From assembly GCA_947447825.1 (NCBI GenBank), contig CANFLL010000004.1:1-64000 (forward strand): 64,000 nucleotides of DNA, read 5' to 3'. Positions within the stretch are counted from its first letter, which is position 1, and every line of letters starts with the position of its first letter. The notes under the pieces were generated by a model. It ran no database searches. It saw only the letters and a program-made list of their open reading frames with translations, and had not been told where the DNA came from. The DNA is from Chitinophagaceae bacterium (GTDB taxonomy: Bacteria > Bacteroidota > Bacteroidia > Chitinophagales > Chitinophagaceae). Positions 13,046 through 36,130 of the stretch are shown here, piece by piece. The position numbers and the translations under genes were made by a program.

Positions 13046-13067
13046 TTTAGCTAACTAGTTAGCTAAA
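13046..13067. terminator. Perfect 22-bp palindrome at the end of the PIN toxin gene
   Basis: A perfect dyad centred on ACTAGT (TTTAGCTAAC plus its complement) spans the stop codon at 13059. On the minus strand it is followed by a short T-rich stretch (AAGTTTTTTA), so it could terminate the toxin-antitoxin transcript. It could equally be an operator or recombination site; the sequence does not decide. Confidence 0.5.
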
Positions 13068-13445
13068 ACTAAAAGGATTGATGATTTTTAAAGACCTAAT
13101 ATTTTCAAAGTCTTTCGCATTATTAGTAATCAAGGTGTAACCATAAGTTATAGCAGTGGCAGCAATAATGGCATCAGGTGTTTTTACTTTTTTGCCTTTC
13201 CGTAGTTTTATACAGTTGGCTATCACTTCTTCGTTGATGTTTAGAATATTGCTATCCGTAATAAAATCCCTGATACTTTTTTCTTTCTGTGGCGATGTTT
13301 TCCAACATAACAACTCTATTTGGGTAATAATGGAAAGATTAGGTAAGGCATCAATTACTTCATCTAGAAAATTGGTGGCATTAATGGAAAAACAATCAGA
13401 AAGATAATCGGAGATTACATTGGTGTCAATTAAATATTGTTCCAT
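13059..13445 (-). CDS. VapC-like PIN-domain toxin ribonuclease
   Basis: Predicted magnesium-dependent ribonuclease of a type II toxin-antitoxin pair. The 128-residue PIN domain starts LIDTNVISDYL (first acidic residue), then TQIELLCW (Glu), KTPDAIIAATAI (Asp) and TNNAKDFENI (Asp), giving the expected four-acid active site. Length is normal. Its start overlaps the 3' end of the upstream antitoxin by 16 bases, the usual translational coupling. It lies in the accessory island between the two pectin arms. Confidence 0.9.
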   Translation of the reverse strand: MEQYLIDTNVISDYLSDCFSINATNFLDEVIDALPNLSIITQIELLCWKTSPQKEKSIRDFITDSNILNINEEVIANCIKLRKGKKVKTPDAIIAATAITYGYTLITNNAKDFENIRSLKIINPFSFS

Positions 13446-13645
13446 TCTGTTCTCATTTGTTGGATATGCTTGGTCAAATCTTCGCCTTCTTCTTTATTTA
13501 GGATGCCCTTATACTTTTCAGATAATCTTTTGGTAGCAGGGGTCGTTGGTTCTTTTATTATCTTTATCAAACGCAGTTCTTCCAATTGTTTCAGCAAACC
13601 CCTTGCCTTAGGATTAGTTATTTGTATTTGCAGTGTGTTTACCAT
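13430..13645 (-). CDS. Antitoxin paired with the PIN toxin
   Basis: A 71-residue charged protein precedes and overlaps the PIN toxin gene. It begins LQIQITNPKARGLLKQLEEL and ends in an acidic, toxin-wrapping type of tail (EEGEDLTKHIQQM). It does not show a classic AbrB or ribbon-helix-helix signature to me, but the position and overlap make the antitoxin role very likely. No other gene lies upstream, so the pair is probably autoregulated from the 13646-13700 region. Confidence 0.75.
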   Translation of the reverse strand: MVNTLQIQITNPKARGLLKQLEELRLIKIIKEPTTPATKRLSEKYKGILNKEEGEDLTKHIQQMRTEWNNI

Positions 13646-13695
13646 AAAACAAAAGTACTATTTTATGTGCATCTTATCAATTATAGATTACTTGG

Positions 13696-13748
13696 ATAAA
13701 AATCGCTGATACTGCACGTGTACTAACTAACTTGTGGCTTCGCTACAA
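13696..13748 (-). repeat. Island boundary repeat (type B), copy 1, inverted
   Basis: Read on the minus strand this matches the start of the type B repeat (TAGCGAAGCCACAAGT, then ACACGTGCAGTATC). Together with copy 2 it makes a large hairpin with perfect 16-base arms at 13730-13745 and 13799-13814. It lies between the toxin-antitoxin pair and the restriction-modification genes. Confidence 0.6.
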
Positions 13749-13796
13749 TCAAATAGTTATAGTAAAAATGATACTGCAAAAACATTAGCAAACTAT

Positions 13797-13872
13797 CTTA
13801 GCGAAGCCACAAGTGACACACTTGCGGTAGCAGCGAGTCCGTGCGGCACCCTGATTTGACTTGCGGCAGCGA
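13797..13872 (+). repeat. Island boundary repeat (type B), copy 2
   Basis: Starts CTTAGCGAAGCCACAAGT and contains ACTTGCGGTAGCAGCGAGTCCG and CACCCTGATTTGAC in that order (each read in short blocks). The same blocks recur in reverse orientation at 15976-16028 and 17542-17611. It lies 84 bases before the methyltransferase start and forms one flank of an inverted pair around the restriction-modification genes. Confidence 0.65.
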
Positions 13873-13955
13873 GGGCTGTTATTTATAACTTCTTTTTTAA
13901 AGTAATATTAAAGACATAAATTTGTAACCCTTGTGTAAGGTTAAACAGGTTGGTT

Positions 13956-15188
13956 ATGAGTGATTATTTAACATTGGCAGAAGCTTCAGAATTTATAGGG
14001 AAGAGTAAGGAAACCCTAAGACGTTGGGATAGAGAAGGAAAGCTAAATGCTGTCCGTGAACCAATGAGCAACTATAGGGTTTACAGAAAAGCAGAAGTAT
14101 TGTCTTTGTTTTCTGACTTTGTTACGCCGGATATATCTGAATCTATTTCAAACTTTGTTCTTCCCGATCACGGATATACTGTATTGGAGTTGTTTGCAGG
14201 TGCTGGAGGGCTAGCTGTAGGAATAGAAAAAGCAGGATTGAAATGTGTTGCACTAAATGAATTGGACAAATGGGCTTGTCAAACTCTTCGGAATAATCGA
14301 CCGAATTGGAAGGTGTTGGAGGGAGATATAAAGTCCTTCAATTTTGAAGAATACCATAATAAGGTAGATGTCGTAACTGGTGGATTTCCTTGTCAGGCAT
14401 TTAGTTATGCAGGCAAAAAGTTAGGATTGGCAGATGCGCGAGGCACCTTGTTTTATGAGTTTGCACGTGTAGTGAAAGAGGTTAACCCACCAATATGTAT
14501 TGGTGAGAATGTACGTGGGTTATTGAGTCATGAAAATGGAAAAACATTGCAGGGTATGGTTTCTATATTGGACGAGATAGGTTATAATGTTGTTCCTGTT
14601 CAGGTATTAAAAGCTATTAACTATAAAGTTCCCCAAAAACGGGAACGATTAATCTTGGTAGGAATTAGAAAAGATATTGGCTTAAAATACGAATATCCTA
14701 AGCCTTATAAAATGATTTATAACCTAAAGGATGCCCTTAAAAAAGGCGAGCTATTTGATACAGATGTTCCATTGTCCGAAGGTGTAAAGTATCCTAAGAG
14801 CAAAAAAGACGTGTTAGACTTGGTGCCACCAAAAGGATATTGGAGAGACCTTCCATTACATATTCAGAAAGAATTTATGGGGGGAAGTTTTCACCTTGGT
14901 GGAGGTAAGACAGGTATTGCTAGAAGGATTGGATGGGACGAGCCTTGCCTTACCCTAACTTGTAGTCCTGCCCAAAAACAAACAGAACGTTGCCATCCAG
15001 ATGAAACAAGACCTTTTACAGTAAGGGAATACGCCCGCATACAAACCTTTCCCGACGATTGGCAGTTTCATGGTTCAATGGCTCAACAATACAAACAAAT
15101 AGGAAATGCCGTTCCTGTAAACTTAGGAAGGGAGGTTGGTTATTCTATTATCCAGTTTTTAAATGAATACTATAAGATTAAAAAGTAA
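13956..15188 (+). CDS. DNA (cytosine-5) methyltransferase with N-terminal MerR-like helix-turn-helix
   Basis: Modification enzyme of a type II restriction-modification system. The track ORF opens at a TTG; the ATG at 13956 gives 410 residues. Residues about 1-55 form an excisionase/MerR-like DNA-binding fold (YLTLAEASEFIGKSKETLRR, then KAEVLSLF). The m5C domain follows with motif I (VLELFAGAGGLAVGIE), the catalytic PCQ loop (GGFPCQAFSYAG), ENV (CIGENVRGLL), the VPQKRERLILVG motif and motif X (QIGNAVPVNLG). The DNA-binding head suggests it may bind its own promoter to set expression. The next gene is convergent and overlaps its 3' end by 11 bases. Confidence 0.93.
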   Translation: MSDYLTLAEASEFIGKSKETLRRWDREGKLNAVREPMSNYRVYRKAEVLSLFSDFVTPDISESISNFVLPDHGYTVLELFAGAGGLAVGIEKAGLKCVALNELDKWACQTLRNNRPNWKVLEGDIKSFNFEEYHNKVDVVTGGFPCQAFSYAGKKLGLADARGTLFYEFARVVKEVNPPICIGENVRGLLSHENGKTLQGMVSILDEIGYNVVPVQVLKAINYKVPQKRERLILVGIRKDIGLKYEYPKPYKMIYNLKDALKKGELFDTDVPLSEGVKYPKSKKDVLDLVPPKGYWRDLPLHIQKEFMGGSFHLGGGKTGIARRIGWDEPCLTLTCSPAQKQTERCHPDETRPFTVREYARIQTFPDDWQFHGSMAQQYKQIGNAVPVNLGREVGYSIIQFLNEYYKIKK

Positions 15189-15891
15189 ATAATGGTGAGG
15201 TTCTTATCTCATTAGCTAAATCACTACATCCTTTTTCAAAGAAATCTTGTGTATCAAGTTCCAAGATACTTAGATTCAGTGCTACAACAAGTTGATCATA
15301 GAACCTAATATATCCAGTTACCCTATGCCAAAAATCCCTACCTATCAGTACGGGATGGGCGGCATCTATTTTTCTGTAATGCATACTCAATTCAGATGGC
15401 TCACCATATAAAACACCTACAATAAAGTCCGAATTGCTAATGCCAGATAGTGCCCTGTTAGTTCTAGCTAGGTTAATTGTGTCGGTAAACTTTTTGATAA
15501 GTGGGTTAACATCTTCCGAGTTAATAGTATTAGGGCCAGATTTCAATTGACACCATTTCTTTCTTGAATCAACTTTGTCTATAAACTCAATATCCATCCC
15601 CTTTATCATTGAACCTTCAGCAATGCCTAAATCAATGAACATACTTTGAATTCTTGTTCCAAAAGAAGTATTGATAGACGTACCAAGAACCCTAGGATAA
15701 TACAATGCTTTTGCAATTCCTTCTGGACTAAACTTTCCATCCAATACCTTTGACAAGTATTTTACTACGATTGGATTTATGTTGTAGGACTTTAGTTTAG
15801 AATGTGTTTTAAGTGAAGAATTGATATGTTGTTCAAAGATATTTTCTTTAAAATATCCCACAATCTTCAGCGTAAGTTCTTGTTCTGTCAT
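15178..15891 (-). CDS. Type II restriction endonuclease (PD-(D/E)xK fold) partner of the methyltransferase
   Basis: The 237-residue protein has a PD-(D/E)xK-like core: GMDIEFIDKVDSRKKWCQLKSGPNT, with Asp-Ile-Glu and Gln-x-Lys in the expected order at about residues 99-119. The upstream SINTSFGTRIQ segment is typical of small type II nucleases. It is tail-to-tail with the methyltransferase and overlaps it by 11 bases. I cannot assign a specific enzyme family or recognition sequence from memory with confidence. The nuclease role rests on the motif and on the adjacent methyltransferase. Confidence 0.8.
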   Translation of the reverse strand: MTEQELTLKIVGYFKENIFEQHINSSLKTHSKLKSYNINPIVVKYLSKVLDGKFSPEGIAKALYYPRVLGTSINTSFGTRIQSMFIDLGIAEGSMIKGMDIEFIDKVDSRKKWCQLKSGPNTINSEDVNPLIKKFTDTINLARTNRALSGISNSDFIVGVLYGEPSELSMHYRKIDAAHPVLIGRDFWHRVTGYIRFYDQLVVALNLSILELDTQDFFEKGCSDLANEIRTSPLFTF

Positions 15892-16221
15892 TCAATAAGG
15901 TTTAATTTATTTCCTCAAATATAGTTGGATATAACTGTTATCCTTACTTGTTTTTTCCGTCTTTGTTGGTGTTCCCCGATACCGCACGTCAAATCAGGGT
16001 GTCGCTGCCGCAAGTCTGTGACTTGTGGTATGTAAGCAAGTTCCCCTACATCTCTTACTTCTACCACTCTAATAAATTTTACAAAAAAGAGGTTCTCATA
16101 AGCTGATTTCAAACGGACACTCCTTTTTCTACTTCGTAAAGATGCAGATTTATTTTGTATAACAATAAAATAAAATTGTCACGATGTGTAAATGATTGGT
16201 GCTAGAGTTTATTCGGCAACT
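15892..16221. other. Gene-free stretch with type B repeat
   Basis: Between the nuclease and the next hairpin there is no supported gene. It contains the inverted type B repeat at 15976-16028. The 65-codon minus-strand ORF at 15915-16112 runs over this repeat and is not credible. Confidence 0.5.
15976..16028 (-). repeat. Island boundary repeat (type B), copy 3
   Basis: On the minus strand: CCACAAGTCACAGACTTGCGG, then CAGCGACACCCTGATTTGAC, then TGCGG. This is the type B order in reverse orientation to copy 2, so the restriction-modification pair is bracketed by inverted copies. Confidence 0.65.
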
Positions 16222-16254
16222 AACGCTATAAGGGCTTTGAGCCCTTATAGCGTT
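16222..16254. repeat. CTATAAGGGCT hairpin, left copy
   Basis: Perfect 15-base arms (AACGCTATAAGGGCT and its complement) enclose a 3-base loop, followed by TTTT. A related hairpin with the same CTATAAGGG core occurs at 17684-17719, on the other side of the beta-sandwich gene and its palindrome array. It could terminate transcripts; the paired placement suggests a module boundary. Confidence 0.7.
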
Positions 16255-16577
16255 TTGGTGTTTTGCGTATAGATGTGGTGAAGAACGCCAACTTCGACAA
16301 ATGGAAACACCGAAAGCTTCATGCTTTCTGGAAGATGCAATAACTCTCTTCCATCTCCCTCAAAAAACTATTTCAAATTTAATTAGGTTTTATCGAACTT
16401 TCCTTTGAACCTTCACCAGAATTAAAAACTGACTAATTACTAAAACATAAAACGTTGCTTTATGAACACATTAGTAGCTTACAAATTTCTTCTTTGCAAC
16501 GTCCGAAATAGCTGCTATTCAACGGCAGTAATCATTACACAGCTTCAACTAGATGGTTAAAAGGCTTTTTTGCTTCC

Positions 16578-16761
16578 AAGAACAATATCATTCTTAGTAA
16601 GAACAATATCATTCTTGGCAAAAACAATATCATTCTTAGTAAGAATGATATCATTCTTAGTAAGAACAATATCATTCTTGGTAAGAACAAATTCATTCTT
16701 GATAAGAACAATATCATTCTTGGCAAGAACAATATCCTTCTTGGTAAGAACAATATTCAGG
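16578..16761. repeat. 21-bp array A: palindromic AAGAAnnATATnnTTCTT units
   Basis: Eight full units and a partial ninth start at 16578, 16599, 16620, 16641, 16662, 16683, 16704, 16725 and 16746, exactly 21 bases apart. Each is an 18-base near-palindrome plus a 3-base spacer (AGT, GGC, GGT or GAT). The fourth unit, AAGAATGATATCATTCTT, is a perfect palindrome. The array ends 66 bases before the ATG at 16827. Because 21 is a multiple of three the array is open in several frames on both strands; those ORFs are artefacts. Confidence 0.95.
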
Positions 16762-16826
16762 AAGGGAAAAAGTAAATTGCAATTAACCTCTTTTACATAC
16801 TCGTTTAATCATTAAATTTAAAAAAA

Positions 16827-17495
16827 ATGTCAGACAACAAACCGCTTATACCATCAACAGATGACGGCAAACATGGTTTTTACATAGTTATTGTGCCATA
16901 CATAAATCTGGCTGCCAATCAATTGCGTTTCAATACGCCCGCAGGAATTCTTTCAGCAATGAACACCAATTATGGGCTTTGGAATCCAAATTGGTTAAAG
17001 TATAAGGATGTTTCTCAGTGCACAAAGCCAGTAATTGAATTAAAGGATAGCTTGGAAATTAAGCTTGACGGTAATATTGATGATGTTTATGGGGATATTC
17101 CCGATTCTGTTTTAACGGCCAACGACAAGGCTGTATTTTTAATTTATGCCCGTAAAGCGGCAAGTTCGGCTGTGGTTTCGCCCATAGCACCGGGTTTTGC
17201 AATGGATACTGCGGGTCATTTGTGGGCTAAGTTTCTATTTCACAACACCGCCACGCCTACTAGTAAGGGTGCGCCAACGGGCAATATTGTTTATTACGAA
17301 ACCTACATTGGTGCAGCGGGCATTGCCAATGCCGATGTGGTGTTTAGCAATGGAAACGTAACATCTTCATCAATACATACTTTTCATTTTGATGAAAGTC
17401 AGGTAGGAAAAACTTGTTACGTGCGCTGTTTTTATCAAACAAAAAAAGACGAACGTAGCCCTGCAAGCGTCATTCTTAGCTTTGTGATAATGTAG
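16827..17495 (+). CDS. Small leaderless beta-sandwich-like protein downstream of array A
   Basis: A 222-residue protein without signal peptide or membrane segment. It is beta-rich and ends in a fibronectin-III-like strand pattern (THTFHFDESQVGKTCYVRCF, then DERSPAS). The layout of that C-terminal strand block resembles the end of the two paralogues at 31278 and 56802 (HSLEI..., YVFKMAA..., RRNY.AP), but overall identity looks low. Function unknown. It is preceded by 21-bp array A and bracketed by two CTATAAGGG hairpins, which suggests a self-contained module of array plus gene. Confidence 0.75.
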   Translation: MSDNKPLIPSTDDGKHGFYIVIVPYINLAANQLRFNTPAGILSAMNTNYGLWNPNWLKYKDVSQCTKPVIELKDSLEIKLDGNIDDVYGDIPDSVLTANDKAVFLIYARKAASSAVVSPIAPGFAMDTAGHLWAKFLFHNTATPTSKGAPTGNIVYYETYIGAAGIANADVVFSNGNVTSSSIHTFHFDESQVGKTCYVRCFYQTKKDERSPASVILSFVIM

Positions 17496-17541
17496 GAGGT
17501 GCTAAGTATTGTGTAAAATAAAAGAAGAGACTGCCCATTGG

Positions 17542-17611
17542 CACACGTCAAATTAGAATGTGAAACGGACTTGCTGCTACCGCACGTTTCCTCACGTGTT
17601 GATTCGCTAAG
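17542..17611 (-). repeat. Island boundary repeat (type B), copy 4
   Basis: On the minus strand it begins CTTAGCGAATCAACACGTGA and then has GTGCGGTAGCAGCAAGTCCG and TAATTTGACGTG, colinear with copy 2 but more diverged. It lies after the 222-aa gene and directly before the first type R repeat. Confidence 0.55.
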
Positions 17612-17617
17612 ATGCTT

Positions 17618-17680
17618 CACTAGACCATCAATATCCCAATAGTGCAATACTGCTCGAAAATCTGGATGCTAGAAGGGTTG
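17618..17680 (+). repeat. Cassette-end repeat (type R), copy 1
   Basis: CACTAG..., CCC, AGTGCAATACTGCTC, then GGATGCTAG. Nested complementary blocks (CTAG/CTAG, CCC/GG, GCA.T/ACTGC) would fold as an interrupted hairpin. It is colinear with the repeats at 18590, 19308 and 19999. Confidence 0.55.
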
Positions 17681-17683
17681 ACC

Positions 17684-17719
17684 AATCCTATAAGGGGCTG
17701 GCAGCCCTTATAGGATTTT
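17684..17719. repeat. CTATAAGGG hairpin, right copy
   Basis: Perfect 13-base arms AATCCTATAAGGG and CCCTTATAGGATT enclose an 8-base loop and are followed by TT. It shares the CTATAAGGGCT core with the hairpin at 16222-16254. Confidence 0.65.
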
Positions 17720-17767
17720 ATCTGCGATGTTATTCTTCTTTACCAAAATCTATAAAGACGTAATCTA

Positions 17768-17775
17768 TATATTTG
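17768..17775 (+). promoter_or_regulatory. -7 element (TATATTTG) for the ankyrin gene
   Basis: A perfect Bacteroidota -7 hexamer-plus lies 26 bases before the chosen ATG at 17802. No good TTTG -33 element is present. Its location inside the longer track ORF supports the shorter start. Confidence 0.45.
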
Positions 17776-17801
17776 TGAGAGGGAAATCGTTAGTTTTAGA
17801 T

Positions 17802-18578
17802 ATGAAATTCAAAAGCAGCATTCTTTTTATATTCACAATTTGCACATTGTATAATTGTAATTCTCAGCAAAGTGACAATATTAAGTTTCCCCTAATTTAT
17901 ACGGGCCATTATAGAGAATTAATGGAGGCTTGTGAAAAAGAGGACACCTTCCTCATAGGAAAAATAATGTACAAACACAAATTAAATCCTAATTATGTTG
18001 AATCAAAAAGCTGTATTTCTTTACTTAATTGGTGCATAATTAATCATAAAATTAATTCTACAGAAGCGTTACTAAAAATGGGGGCAGATCCAAATTGGGC
18101 AGACTCTAATTGCACATATCCTCCCCCAATAACCATTGCAACTGAAATGGAGCAACCATTAATTTTTTTAAAATTAATGGTAAAGTATAAGGGTGATGTA
18201 AATGTAAAGTCTTCTAATTTTATAGACCCTAATCCTGGACTAAAAGGTAAATCCCCACTTTACGCAGCTATATATTCTGGAGAAATGGATAAAATAAAAT
18301 TGTTAGTTGATAATGGAGCAGATATTAATTTAAGGATTGATTCTACGCCTAGTCCATTGGCATTAGCATTGCTTCATAGAAAATTAGTTACAGTAAAATA
18401 TTTATTAGATGAAGGAGCAGATTTTAAAGAGTTAAATTTTGTTACTTTAGATGGGGAAAAACTAACTATTTATGATTTTCTTGATAAAATTAAACCAATG
18501 AAAGACACAAATCAAATGGAATTAAAAAAGAAAATAATCGAATATTTAGAATTAAAAAATTACAAACGAAAACAATAG
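17802..18578 (+). CDS. Ankyrin-repeat lipoprotein
   Basis: The track ORF begins at 17727, but the ATG at 17802 gives a proper lipoprotein signal (MKFKSSILFIFTICTLYNC, lipobox Cys at about residue 19) and 258 residues. Ankyrin-type repeats are visible: ALLKMGADPNW, KSPLYAAIYSGEMDKIKLL, DNGADINLR, VKYLLDEGADF. These usually mediate protein binding; here probably on the periplasmic side of a membrane. It lies in the accessory island as a single gene and is followed 12 bases after the stop by a type R repeat, like a cassette. Confidence 0.85.
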   Translation: MKFKSSILFIFTICTLYNCNSQQSDNIKFPLIYTGHYRELMEACEKEDTFLIGKIMYKHKLNPNYVESKSCISLLNWCIINHKINSTEALLKMGADPNWADSNCTYPPPITIATEMEQPLIFLKLMVKYKGDVNVKSSNFIDPNPGLKGKSPLYAAIYSGEMDKIKLLVDNGADINLRIDSTPSPLALALLHRKLVTVKYLLDEGADFKELNFVTLDGEKLTIYDFLDKIKPMKDTNQMELKKKIIEYLELKNYKRKQ

Positions 18579-18589
18579 ACTAACTCCTT

Positions 18590-18648
18590 CTAGCTCATGA
18601 ATAACCCAACAGTGCAGTACTGCTCTAATATCGGGTGCTAGTTCATTA
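18590..18648 (+). repeat. Cassette-end repeat (type R), copy 2
   Basis: CTAGCTCATGAATAACCC, AGTGCAGTACTGCTC, then TCGGGTGCTAGTTCATTA. It contains the perfect dyad GCAGTACTGC, with outer CTAGC/GCTAG and CCC/GGG pairs. It begins 12 bases after the ankyrin gene stop, in the same orientation as the gene. Confidence 0.65.
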
Positions 18649-18724
18649 CTCCCGTTATGGACTGATTGGTTACTTGGTTTAGCATAAGTGAAATATAAAA
18701 TAAACCGCCCCACTCTGCAAAAGG

Positions 18725-18732
18725 TATATTTG
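18725..18732 (+). promoter_or_regulatory. -7 element (TATATTTG) for the ORF6N gene
   Basis: A perfect TAnnTTTG match lies 15 bases before the ATG at 18747. The -33 element is not clear. It implies a short leader for the ORF6N gene, independent of the ankyrin gene. Confidence 0.45.
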
Positions 18733-18746
18733 TATAAATACTTGAA

Positions 18747-19295
18747 ATGCAAATAATACAATCCATACAAAACAGGATATACACGATAAGGGGAGAAAGA
18801 GTAATGCTAGATTTTGATTTGGCAGCCCTCTACGAAGTAGAAACAAGGGTATTGAACCAAGCCGTGAAAAGAAACTTGAAAAGATTTCCCGAAGATTTCA
18901 TGTTCAGACTTAGTGTTACCGAGTGGCAAATGATGCAGTCACAATTTGTGACCGCATCCCCTATGTCATCACAAATTGTGATGACATACCCAAGCAAGCG
19001 ACCTTCTGCAGCTTTGCCATATGCTTTTACCGAACAAGGAGTAGCAATGCTTAGTGGCATACTAAACAGTGATAAGGCAATAAATACCAATATTGCCATC
19101 ATGCGAGCATTTATAGAAGTTCGAAAAGTATTGCTTCAACAAACTGATATGCGCGAACAACTGCGGGAAATAAAAGAGCGGATGGGCGAACACGATACCC
19201 AACTAAATCAAATATATGATGCCATGGAAAACCTGCTAGACGAAAAAGCCGCCCAAAGAAAATGGGATGAACGCCAACGGATTGGGTTTAAGTAG
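18747..19295 (+). CDS. ORF6N-domain DNA-binding protein
   Basis: The 182-residue protein has an ORF6N domain over about residues 4-95 (IYTIRGERVMLDFDLAALYE, then NQAVKRNLKRFPEDFMFRL, and ALPYAFTEQGVAML). A charged helical or coiled tail follows (REQLREIKERMGEHD). ORF6N proteins are phage- and island-borne, related to KilA-N/antirepressor proteins, and are thought to bind DNA. The cellular target here is unknown. It stands as a single-gene module with its own -7 element and a type R repeat 13 bases after the stop. Confidence 0.9.
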   Translation: MQIIQSIQNRIYTIRGERVMLDFDLAALYEVETRVLNQAVKRNLKRFPEDFMFRLSVTEWQMMQSQFVTASPMSSQIVMTYPSKRPSAALPYAFTEQGVAMLSGILNSDKAINTNIAIMRAFIEVRKVLLQQTDMREQLREIKERMGEHDTQLNQIYDAMENLLDEKAAQRKWDERQRIGFK

Positions 19296-19307
19296 TAAGA
19301 ATCCTAT

Positions 19308-19359
19308 CTAGCCCAAAAATTCAGTACTGCCCAAAAAGTGGGGGTGTTAGTTCATTAGC
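19308..19359 (+). repeat. Cassette-end repeat (type R), copy 3
   Basis: CTAGCCC, CAGTACTGCCC, AAAAAGTGGGGGTGTTAG, TTCATTAGC. It contains the dyad CAGTACTG and CCC/GGG pairs. It begins 13 bases after the ORF6N stop, same orientation. Confidence 0.6.
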
Positions 19360-19454
19360 AAGTGCTATTTTAGGCAATCAGGGAGTTGAACGAATATCAA
19401 CACAAGAAAAATAGCAACAAAACCTCTTATCTTTAACCTAAATAAAATATTGCA

Positions 19455-19679
19455 ATGAATAATAGTTCAATAAATGCACAAATTAGTTTTCCTGAATTGG
19501 TAGCAATAGTGAAAACACTATCTAATTCAGAGAAACAATTATTAACAGAAGTATTATGGGATGATAATTTTCCAGTATTTGAAGAACATCAAAAGTTAGT
19601 GCAAAACAGAATGGAAAAAGCCAAAAGACAACCAGAAAGAATGTTGAATTGGGATGCTGTTTCTAAATCCTTAGGATAA
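19455..19679 (+). CDS. RelB-like addiction-module antitoxin
   Basis: A 74-residue protein with the usual layout of the 'putative addiction module component' antitoxins: an N-terminal helical part (LVAIVKTLSNSEKQLLTEVL), an acidic middle, and a conserved tail (RMEKAKRQPERMLNWDAV). It ends one base before the toxin ATG, so the two are translationally coupled. Such antitoxins bind both the toxin and the promoter. Confidence 0.85.
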   Translation: MNNSSINAQISFPELVAIVKTLSNSEKQLLTEVLWDDNFPVFEEHQKLVQNRMEKAKRQPERMLNWDAVSKSLG

Positions 19680-19680
19680 A

Positions 19681-19992
19681 ATGAAACAAAGAAAAATTCT
19701 TATCGACATAGATGCACTATCCGACATCAACTCTTCAATGAAATGGTATGAAGAGCAATCAACAGGTTTGGGAATACGCTTTGGAAAACAAGTTCGGTCT
19801 CAAATCAATTCCCTTAAAGTTAATCCTGAAGCATATAGTGTTAGATACTTGAATGTGCGTTGCATGCTGATTAAGAAATTCCCTTTTTTAGTCCACTTTA
19901 TAATAACCGAAAATGACACAGTGAATATATTTGCAGTATTTCACACAAGTCGTAATCCAAAGATATGGGCAGGGAGAAGAACCGAAGAATAA
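19681..19992 (+). CDS. RelE/ParE-family toxin
   Basis: A 103-residue basic protein with the RelE/ParE fold signature: the DALSDINSSMKWYEEQ helix, GLGIRFGKQVRSQI, then the strand run YLNVRCMLIKKFPFLVHFII and the C-terminal VNIFAVFHTSRNPKIW. RelE members cut mRNA on the ribosome and ParE members poison gyrase; the sequence alone does not separate these here. Paired with the antitoxin one base upstream. A type R repeat starts 7 bases after the stop. Confidence 0.88.
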   Translation: MKQRKILIDIDALSDINSSMKWYEEQSTGLGIRFGKQVRSQINSLKVNPEAYSVRYLNVRCMLIKKFPFLVHFIITENDTVNIFAVFHTSRNPKIWAGRRTEE

Positions 19993-19998
19993 TTATCA

Positions 19999-20061
19999 AC
20001 TAGTCAATGAATACCCCCTACAGTACTTCTATAAAAATCGGGTTCAAGTTCATTAGCGAGT
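19999..20061 (+). repeat. Cassette-end repeat (type R), copy 4
   Basis: ACTAGTCAATGAATACCCCC, ACAGTACTTCT, AAAAATCGGGTTCAAGTTCATTAGCG in short blocks. It is colinear with copies 2 and 3 but its central dyad is shorter. It is the last repeat of the island before the second pectin arm. Confidence 0.55.
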
Positions 20062-20106
20062 AGAAAACACAATTGTCAGCAGAAATAATATCCATTTTAC
20101 AGAGGC

Positions 20107-35227: not shown

Positions 35228-36130
35228 TTACGCTTTGGGATGCGCTTTATTAAAAACATCTTTCAATTTGTCAATTGTATTATGGGTATATACCTGTGTT
35301 GAAGCCAGACTAGAATGTCCTAAAAGTTCTTTTACCGCATTTAAGCTTGCTCCATTATTCATTAAATGGGTAGCAAAACTGTGGCGAAGTATATGCGGAC
35401 TTTTCTTTTTGATGGTTGTAATGGTAGATAAATACTGATTTACAAATGTGTAAACCTTTCGCTGCTGCAATGCCTTACCCTTTTCGTCAGTAAATAAATT
35501 GGTAATGCCTTCTATTTGAACAGATTTTTCTGCCACATATTCTTTTAACGAATCCCTCATTTCTGTGGAAATGGGCACAATCCTTTCCTTATTTCCTTTT
35601 CCCAAAACTTTTATCTGCGATTTTGAATAGTCAACATCACCTTCTTTAATAGTAATAAGTTCCGTTAACCGCATCCCTGTAGAATAAAATAGCAACAGCA
35701 CTAGGCGTTCTGTTCTTCCTTTCCAATCATCAGGAAACTCTACATGGTTAAATAAGGTTTGCATGTCATCTTCCAATACAAACTCTGGCAAACGTTTATT
35801 AATCTTGGGGGTATGCACGGTAATCATGGGACTAACTTCTAGCTTACCCATTTTCATAAGGTACTTAAAGAAAGATTTTAGAGAAGAGGCTTTTCTATTG
35901 ATTGACTTTGAACTAATGTCATCACTCTTTAACGAAGCCAACCAAGTACGAATAAAGGTGGGGAGTATTTTGGATATCTCAGGAGAATCGAATGAATCTA
36001 CTAAGAAAAGGAAAAACTGTTCCAAATCATTTCGATAGGCTTCAATAGTATGGAGAGAGTACCTCTTTTCGAACTGGAGATAATCTAAAAAAGATTGTAT
36101 TTCTGGGTGATATTGCTTAGTAATAGACAT
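35228..36130 (-). CDS. xerC: Tyrosine recombinase XerC/XerD
   Basis: Resolves chromosome dimers at dif during division. The 300-residue protein has the N-terminal SAM-like core-binding domain (FLDYLQFEKRYSLHTIEAYRNDL) and a C-terminal catalytic domain with the RKHRH-Y set: TGMRLTEL (Arg), GKGNKERIVP (Lys), HILRHSFATHL (His, Arg), LGHSSLASTQVYTH (His, Tyr). The end LKDVFNKAHPKA is XerC-like, but XerD cannot be excluded. It lies between rpsU and raiA, so it is the housekeeping enzyme, not an island integrase. Confidence 0.9.
   Translation of the reverse strand: MSITKQYHPEIQSFLDYLQFEKRYSLHTIEAYRNDLEQFFLFLVDSFDSPEISKILPTFIRTWLASLKSDDISSKSINRKASSLKSFFKYLMKMGKLEVSPMITVHTPKINKRLPEFVLEDDMQTLFNHVEFPDDWKGRTERLVLLLFYSTGMRLTELITIKEGDVDYSKSQIKVLGKGNKERIVPISTEMRDSLKEYVAEKSVQIEGITNLFTDEKGKALQQRKVYTFVNQYLSTITTIKKKSPHILRHSFATHLMNNGASLNAVKELLGHSSLASTQVYTHNTIDKLKDVFNKAHPKA

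Follow-up and report, generated by a model that had tools for sequence, protein, structure and literature searches.

Four similar repeats lie between positions 17615 and 20060 of the window, a stretch of 64,000 nucleotides at the start of contig CANFLL010000004.1 from a Chitinophagaceae bacterium (assembly GCA_947447825.1). We found that they are mostly worn copies of one mobile repeat family. With a probability of roughly 0.8, the repeat is a ~95-bp non-coding mobile element that resembles repetitive extragenic palindromes (REPs) and belongs to a Bacteroidota REP-associated tyrosine transposase (RAYT), a Y1 transposase of the HUH type; with the same confidence, we regard this RAYT-linked element as a sequence type that we did not find described in the literature. 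RAYTs are regarded as domesticated transposases tied to REPs, and the reason why genomes keep them is still open. The link between element and RAYT is drawn from copies that flank a RAYT gene of this genome and from a 37-nt hairpin that stands beside RAYT relatives.

Structure of the element

The complete element is about 95 bp long and has sharp ends (CCCAW-CTAG-CCCATGAATA...GGGTG-CTAG-TTCATGACTCCCGTCATGGACT...GTTACTAA). In copies aligned at the left CTAG, conservation is absent farther out than CCCAW-CTAG, and the right end is sharp at GTTACTAA, where TTACT itself served as the anchor of the alignment. The consensus of 30 copies is CCCATCTAGCCCATGAATA.CCAA..AGTAAAGTACT.CTCGAAAATCGGGGTGCTAGTTCATGACTCCCGTCATGGACTT...GGTTACTA. 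Each element carries two CTAG heads in direct orientation, with a similar arm after each (CCCATGAAT and TTCATGACT). A hairpin is formed at the right CTAG only; the left CTAG has half a stem arm. The right half is composed of CTAG, a 9-bp hairpin, a loop of the TCCC type and TTACT. In nearly all copies the head tetranucleotide is CTAG or CTGG, and the canonical GT[AG]G is not found there. The length from CTAG to TTACT has a mode of 86 nt in stand-alone copies and is 103-104 nt in copies linked to a RAYT gene. Many copies stand alone as 95 bp with no cargo gene, their homology stopping at TTACTAA.

The four window copies share one orientation, as originally described:

17615..17672, + strand: copy 1; CTAG at 17620, second CTAG at 17669; only the left part retained, without the right hairpin and TTACT
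18585..18677, + strand: copy 2; left CTAG at 18590, right CTAG at 18638, 9-bp hairpin at 18641-18662, terminal TTACT at 18670-18674
19303..19362, + strand: copy 3; CTAG at 19308; left side shortened, right hairpin arm lost
19995..20060, + strand: copy 4; CTAG at 20000; right hairpin arm lost

Copy 2 is the only intact element in the window, as copies 1, 3, and 4 have neither the right arm nor TTACT. The original prediction, made from the letters of the window, had credited all four repeats with a shared list of blocks (CTAG..CCC..GGG..GCTAG..TTCATTA). The list holds for the copy at 18590 and is incomplete in the other three: copy 1 carries GCAATACTGC and has no TTCATTA, copy 3 carries TCAGTACTGC and TTAG, and copy 4 carries ACAGTACTTC and CAAG. 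These three copies are degraded and probably no longer substrates for transposition.

The fold proposed for the repeats paired CTAG with CTAG, CCC with GGG, and the two halves of an inner palindrome, GCAGTACTGC. Across the 30 copies it shows no covariation, and 444 of 500 shuffles reach its score. Only 67% of its cells are paired (52% for CCC/GGG, 40-50% for the inner palindrome pairs), and individual copies fold no better than shuffles (41 to 164 of 200 shuffles fold equally well). Because CTAG is self-complementary, two direct copies of it always resemble an inverted repeat. The GCAGTACTGC palindrome is a local variant of AGTAAAGTACT; as a candidate for the core of the element it was rejected, its exact 10-mers elsewhere lying in unrelated sequence except on one contig (C118). 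The true structure is the right-hand 9-bp hairpin, which has strong covariation. Among 30 whole elements, 93.7% of its cells are paired with 30 two-sided changes, and among 27 hairpins from the genome and from relatives, 93.4% are paired with 41 two-sided changes; neither result was reached by any of 500 shuffles. A G-T/T-G wobble at the third pair from the foot is swapped between families. With the fold corrected in this way, the four "folded repeats" of the window are explained as one family plus decay.

Spread of the family and its link to a RAYT

All copy counts derive from searches with a sequence model, whose ten seeds, the four window copies and six from other parts of the genome, match by construction. 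The genome-wide search, which had been proposed as a check, recovered a dispersed family, with 24 matches at E < 0.01 and 35 in all at E <= 10. Within the genus, matches are present in nine of 13 genomes at E <= 0.001, by far the most of them (43) in the genome designated G011. Given the 35 matches, the nine genomes and the sharp ends, the repeats are not a product of chance.

Y1 transposase matches occur in five regions of the genome, and contig C103 carries a RAYT gene:

C103:1087-1725: RAYT gene; NCBIfam NF047646 REP_Tyr_transpos, 97.4 bits (cut-off 80); Pfam Y1_Tnp over cut-off

The protein scores 20 bits against the IS200 transposase model (cut-off 55), and its motifs are NHFHL, FWQ, and YLHENP. 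Immediately 5′ of the gene, the element is present as two tandem copies, and 16 bp behind the stop there is an inverted hairpin. The closest relative outside the genome (L047, 78%) has CTAGTTCATGACTCCCGTCATGGACTGCACGTTACT 5′ of the gene, on that side only. More distant RAYT relatives (L048-L051) are accompanied by CTGG- or CTAG-headed hairpins ending in TTACT, located 5′ and inverted 3′ and all 37 nt long. RAYT relatives of some kind are found in all 13 genomes of the genus, the closest in G011 (78% and 77%) and G007 (78%). At E < 0.01, the RAYT matched none of the solved structures by sequence.

We propose that the CTAG/CTGG tetranucleotide and the hairpin would be what the RAYT recognizes in the folded single strand, and that the enzyme would cut near CCCAW and TTACT and paste the element elsewhere. 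Several observations weigh against a RAYT-linked, REP-like element. In one genome (G003), 10 copies are present without a close RAYT, the best full-length match being 28% identical, while another (G001) has a RAYT at 71% and no match to the element model. The family is small for REPs (about 30-40 copies), and the copies are mainly not inverted doublets. No clean empty sites were found among the loci examined, where the candidate rows proved to be self-repeats or tandem copies. The head, too, departs from that of canonical REPs.

On C103, an Rhs-like C-terminus (YHYAADDPITNVDEDG; L006 1-850) lies beside RAYT fragments, which suggests a polymorphic toxin/immunity region. A further Y1 transposase gene (94.9 bits) is located in L012 (C114:9573-12130) among ~210-bp tandem units that carry the palindromes CCTCCAGCTAAAGCTAGGAGG and CCACTAGATTTATCTAGTGG.

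Placement behind genes and differences between modules

The genes that accompany the window copies are the following:

17727..18578, + strand: ankyrin-repeat protein gene (Pfam Ank_2), ending before copy 2
18747..19295, + strand: ORF6N-domain gene (Pfam); with copy 2, the recurrent element-ORF6N unit
19455..19679, + strand: putative antitoxin gene, assigned from its location and its conservation alongside the toxin gene; no Pfam match
19681..19992, + strand: ParE/RelE-type toxin gene (Pfam); with the antitoxin gene and copy 3, the recurrent element-toxin/antitoxin unit

The stops of the ankyrin (18578), ORF6N (19295), and ParE-type toxin (19992) genes precede the CTAG of copies 2, 3, and 4 by 11, 12, and 7 bp, so three of the repeats do stand just behind genes, as had been noticed; copy 1 is more than 100 bp beyond the preceding open reading frame (ORF). 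This placement extends beyond the window. We examined 66 elements from seven genomes, counting an identical pair once, with ORFs called mechanically (>=75 aa) in loci chosen around the elements. Seventeen elements have a same-strand stop codon within 25 bp upstream of their left end, a number significantly higher than under random intergenic placement in the same loci (4.2 ± 1.9 expected; 0 of 2000 placements as high). Without the window copies, the count is 14 of 62. The other arrangements are rare (start on the left, 2; convergent stop on the right, 1; start on the right, 1; about 4 expected for each). A few elements in the count share the ORF6N unit downstream, although their upstream genes differ. 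Copies are located, or have been retained, preferentially just behind stops in the gene's own direction.

The modules also differ between genomes. The genome G011 keeps the pectin-utilization genes around the window (GH28 at 94-96%), and at its syntenic locus ~100 bp of different sequence take the place of the segment 19304-20101 (copy 3, the toxin-antitoxin genes, and copy 4); the gene preceding its ORF6N element is also not that of the window. In G003, three element-ORF6N units (C347, C313, and C17) lie behind three different genes, one ORF6N gene being internally deleted, and an element-toxin/antitoxin unit (C462) lies behind an element of a second REP-like family. Overall, the element-ORF6N unit occurs behind at least four different upstream genes and the element-toxin/antitoxin unit in two contexts. 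Modules thus differ between genomes at the repeats, and with the bias toward stop codons the copies are neither random with respect to gene ends nor tied to modules that never move. The suggestion of a different cassette system in the original prediction is supported in part: the placement and the module differences at the repeats agree with it, whereas many copies are free of cargo and there is no regular cassette array.

Genes that adjoin elements include those for PIN domains, Gp49/RelE, ParE, an MNT-type nucleotidyltransferase, zeta toxin, DUF5618, YobI-ATPase, a weak Imm44 match, and ORF6N; ordinary genes, such as those for a CDP-alcohol transferase and a response regulator, adjoin them too. 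We suggest that copies in accessory regions would mark the borders of toxin-antitoxin, immunity, and defense modules, and that these borders may be where modules are exchanged, whether through recombination between copies or through co-mobilization of the gene adjoining an element.

It is quite possible that the modules differ through ordinary homologous recombination or deletion between REP-like copies, with the elements themselves passive. Many similar copies are available in one genome, a crossover within two of them would give identical junctions, and mosaics with the second REP-like family are present. However, with a similarity of only about 75-87% over ~90 bp, many copies would be poor substrates, and the strand-specific placement behind stops is left unexplained. 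Some 3′ borders of the modules also fit this explanation poorly. In both recurrent units, the homology extends no more than about 15 bp beyond the stop of the gene. Behind ORF6N, there is a full element in the window's own genome only and a left fragment (CTAGCCCATGAATAG) in G003 C347; no recognizable element is present at this border in G011, G003 C313, and G003 C17, an outcome that recombination between repeats alone would not yield.

Those three borders would be compatible with a RAYT that moves the element and the following gene as one single-stranded unit, the elements being the ends of gene cassettes. Toxin-antitoxin, immunity, and accessory genes would then be stacked one way behind stops, with an HUH transposase and hairpin guides in place of a tyrosine integrase and attC, as a functional parallel to integron cassettes. 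In pairwise comparison of flanks, long sharing is found downstream only, beginning at the left end of the element, and homology without a shared upstream flank starts there both for element-ORF6N (own genome; G003 C347, C313, and C17; G011) and for element-toxin/antitoxin (own genome; G003 C462). Sharing upstream only, which integrons would predict, extends over just 70-180 bp, save for one pair identical in two genomes. The genes adjoining elements are often toxin-antitoxin or defense-like, and modules enclosed by consecutive elements are present both in the window and in G011 C16. Nevertheless, we consider cassette movement by the RAYT unlikely. Many 95-bp copies stand alone, downstream genes are neither consistently close nor on the same strand, and no conserved right-end signal was recognized behind ORF6N or the toxin-antitoxin genes. 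Moreover, REPtrons, in which repeats flank a RAYT gene, reportedly do not transpose as one unit (PMC6006769). Because part of the downstream sharing consists of RAYT remnants and minisatellites, the inference of cassettes draws on the five contexts of ORF6N and the two of toxin-antitoxin.

Less likely again is retention of the element behind genes as a signal of mRNA 3′ ends (a terminator or stabilizer), with an RNA function setting its orientation. The strand-specific placement within 25 bp after stops and the conservation of the hairpin with G-U-compatible pairs are in its favor, but the hairpin is short and has no T run, many copies have no gene end nearby, the copies adjacent to the RAYT are 5′ of the gene, and no Rfam family scores above threshold for the element. 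That the repeats are integron attC sites or their relatives, as a gene followed by a similar repeat in one orientation might suggest, is highly improbable and was rejected: by inspection, the consensus has neither RYYYAAC nor GTTRRRY (GTTACTA fails at the second R), extending the original remark on GTTRRRY, the fold proposed for the repeats is neither conserved nor covarying, and contigs with strong copies yielded a single tyrosine recombinase gene, which is XerC/D-like. This gene lies in the window:

35228-36130, - strand: tyrosine recombinase gene; best-scoring class XerC/XerD

The window had been described as containing no integrase, which is not entirely accurate in view of this gene; no integron integrase was found with the copies. 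Phage_integrase has 13 matches in the genome, and the one classified is the window's.

If the RAYT-linked element does border exchangeable toxin-antitoxin and defense modules, REPs would take part in shaping accessory regions, and the co-mobilization of genes by a RAYT would become testable in such a system.

The window copies lie within an accessory island (13059-20062) inside the pectin-utilization locus, which holds a PIN toxin, a C5 methylase with an EcoO109I-like nuclease, and the ankyrin, ORF6N, and toxin-antitoxin genes; in its place, G011 has a 306-aa gene of unknown family. The second REP-like family (GCTASCGCACG..CGTGTG..TTCGCTAAG) is represented next to copy 1:

17530..17613, + strand: member of the second REP-like family (GCTACCGCACG..CGTGTTGATTCGCTAAG), directly adjoining copy 1

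This element resembles repeats beside other RAYT genes (C125 and C64; L014 about 1245-1320 and L016). In G011, a repeat of the second family sits in or next to the counterpart of copy 2, splitting the element before ORF6N. Copy 1 is followed by an unrelated strong hairpin, AATCCTATAAGGGGCTGGCAGCCCTTATAGGATT (17680-17720; hairpin at about 17685-17720), with a partial relative at 16232 (16225-16260) and a similar hairpin in C103 (L006 about 2010-2045); it is possibly a third repeat family. A minisatellite with a 21-bp unit (AAGAACAATATCATTCTTAGT) in 8 overlapping copies occupies 16557-16790, and other minisatellites come after elements in G009, G010, and G011.

The G003 contigs C313 and C462 (L267 1-141; L252/L179) begin with 141 identical bp. 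Beyond these, one continues as gene-element-ORF6N and the other as second repeat-element-toxin/antitoxin; the shared stretch may stem from strain variants that overlap in the assembly graph or from a duplicated gene. About 2 kb with an element and a PIN gene are 100% identical in two different species (L254, G009:C531; L239, G011:C27), reflecting either recent transfer or binning contamination.

Comparison with known systems

Integron cassettes resemble the present arrangement in their one-way repeats between genes, toxin-antitoxin-like cargo, and modules that vary between relatives. They differ in that our element has no attC cores and no conserved attC-like fold and often stands alone. The shared homology is on the downstream side of the element. 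IS200/IS605 derivatives and palindrome-associated miniature inverted-repeat transposable elements likewise combine a Y1 HUH enzyme, a subterminal hairpin with a guide tetranucleotide, and short non-coding copies, but the C103 enzyme scores as a RAYT (97 bits) and not as an IS200 transposase. REP doublets forming hairpins (REPINs) and bacterial interspersed mosaic elements (BIMEs) are also composite REP-derived units. However, they pair inverted REPs, whereas the two heads of our element are direct; the pair flanking the RAYT is inverted.

The REPtron layout described for RAYTs, with repeats on both sides of the gene (PMC2817692, PMC6006769), is shared by the C103 locus, as are dispersed extragenic copies, a hairpin with a conserved tetranucleotide before it, and single-strand logic. 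Unlike REPs of REPtrons, the element has two parts in direct orientation over 95 bp, is strand-specific behind stop codons, and is headed by CTAG/CTGG instead of GT[AG]G. In Stenotrophomonas, a change from GTAG to CTAG reduces cleavage and does not abolish it (PMC8266576). TnpA_Y1 subclass 2.6, mostly from Bacteroidetes, has the motifs NH[LIV]H, WQ, and YIH[QN]NP (PMC6006769), to which NHFH, WQ, and YLHENP of the C103 RAYT are an inexact match. Members of this subclass are flanked by "atypical secondary structures" with copies in the genome (PMC6006769), and in this they match in kind what we describe here.

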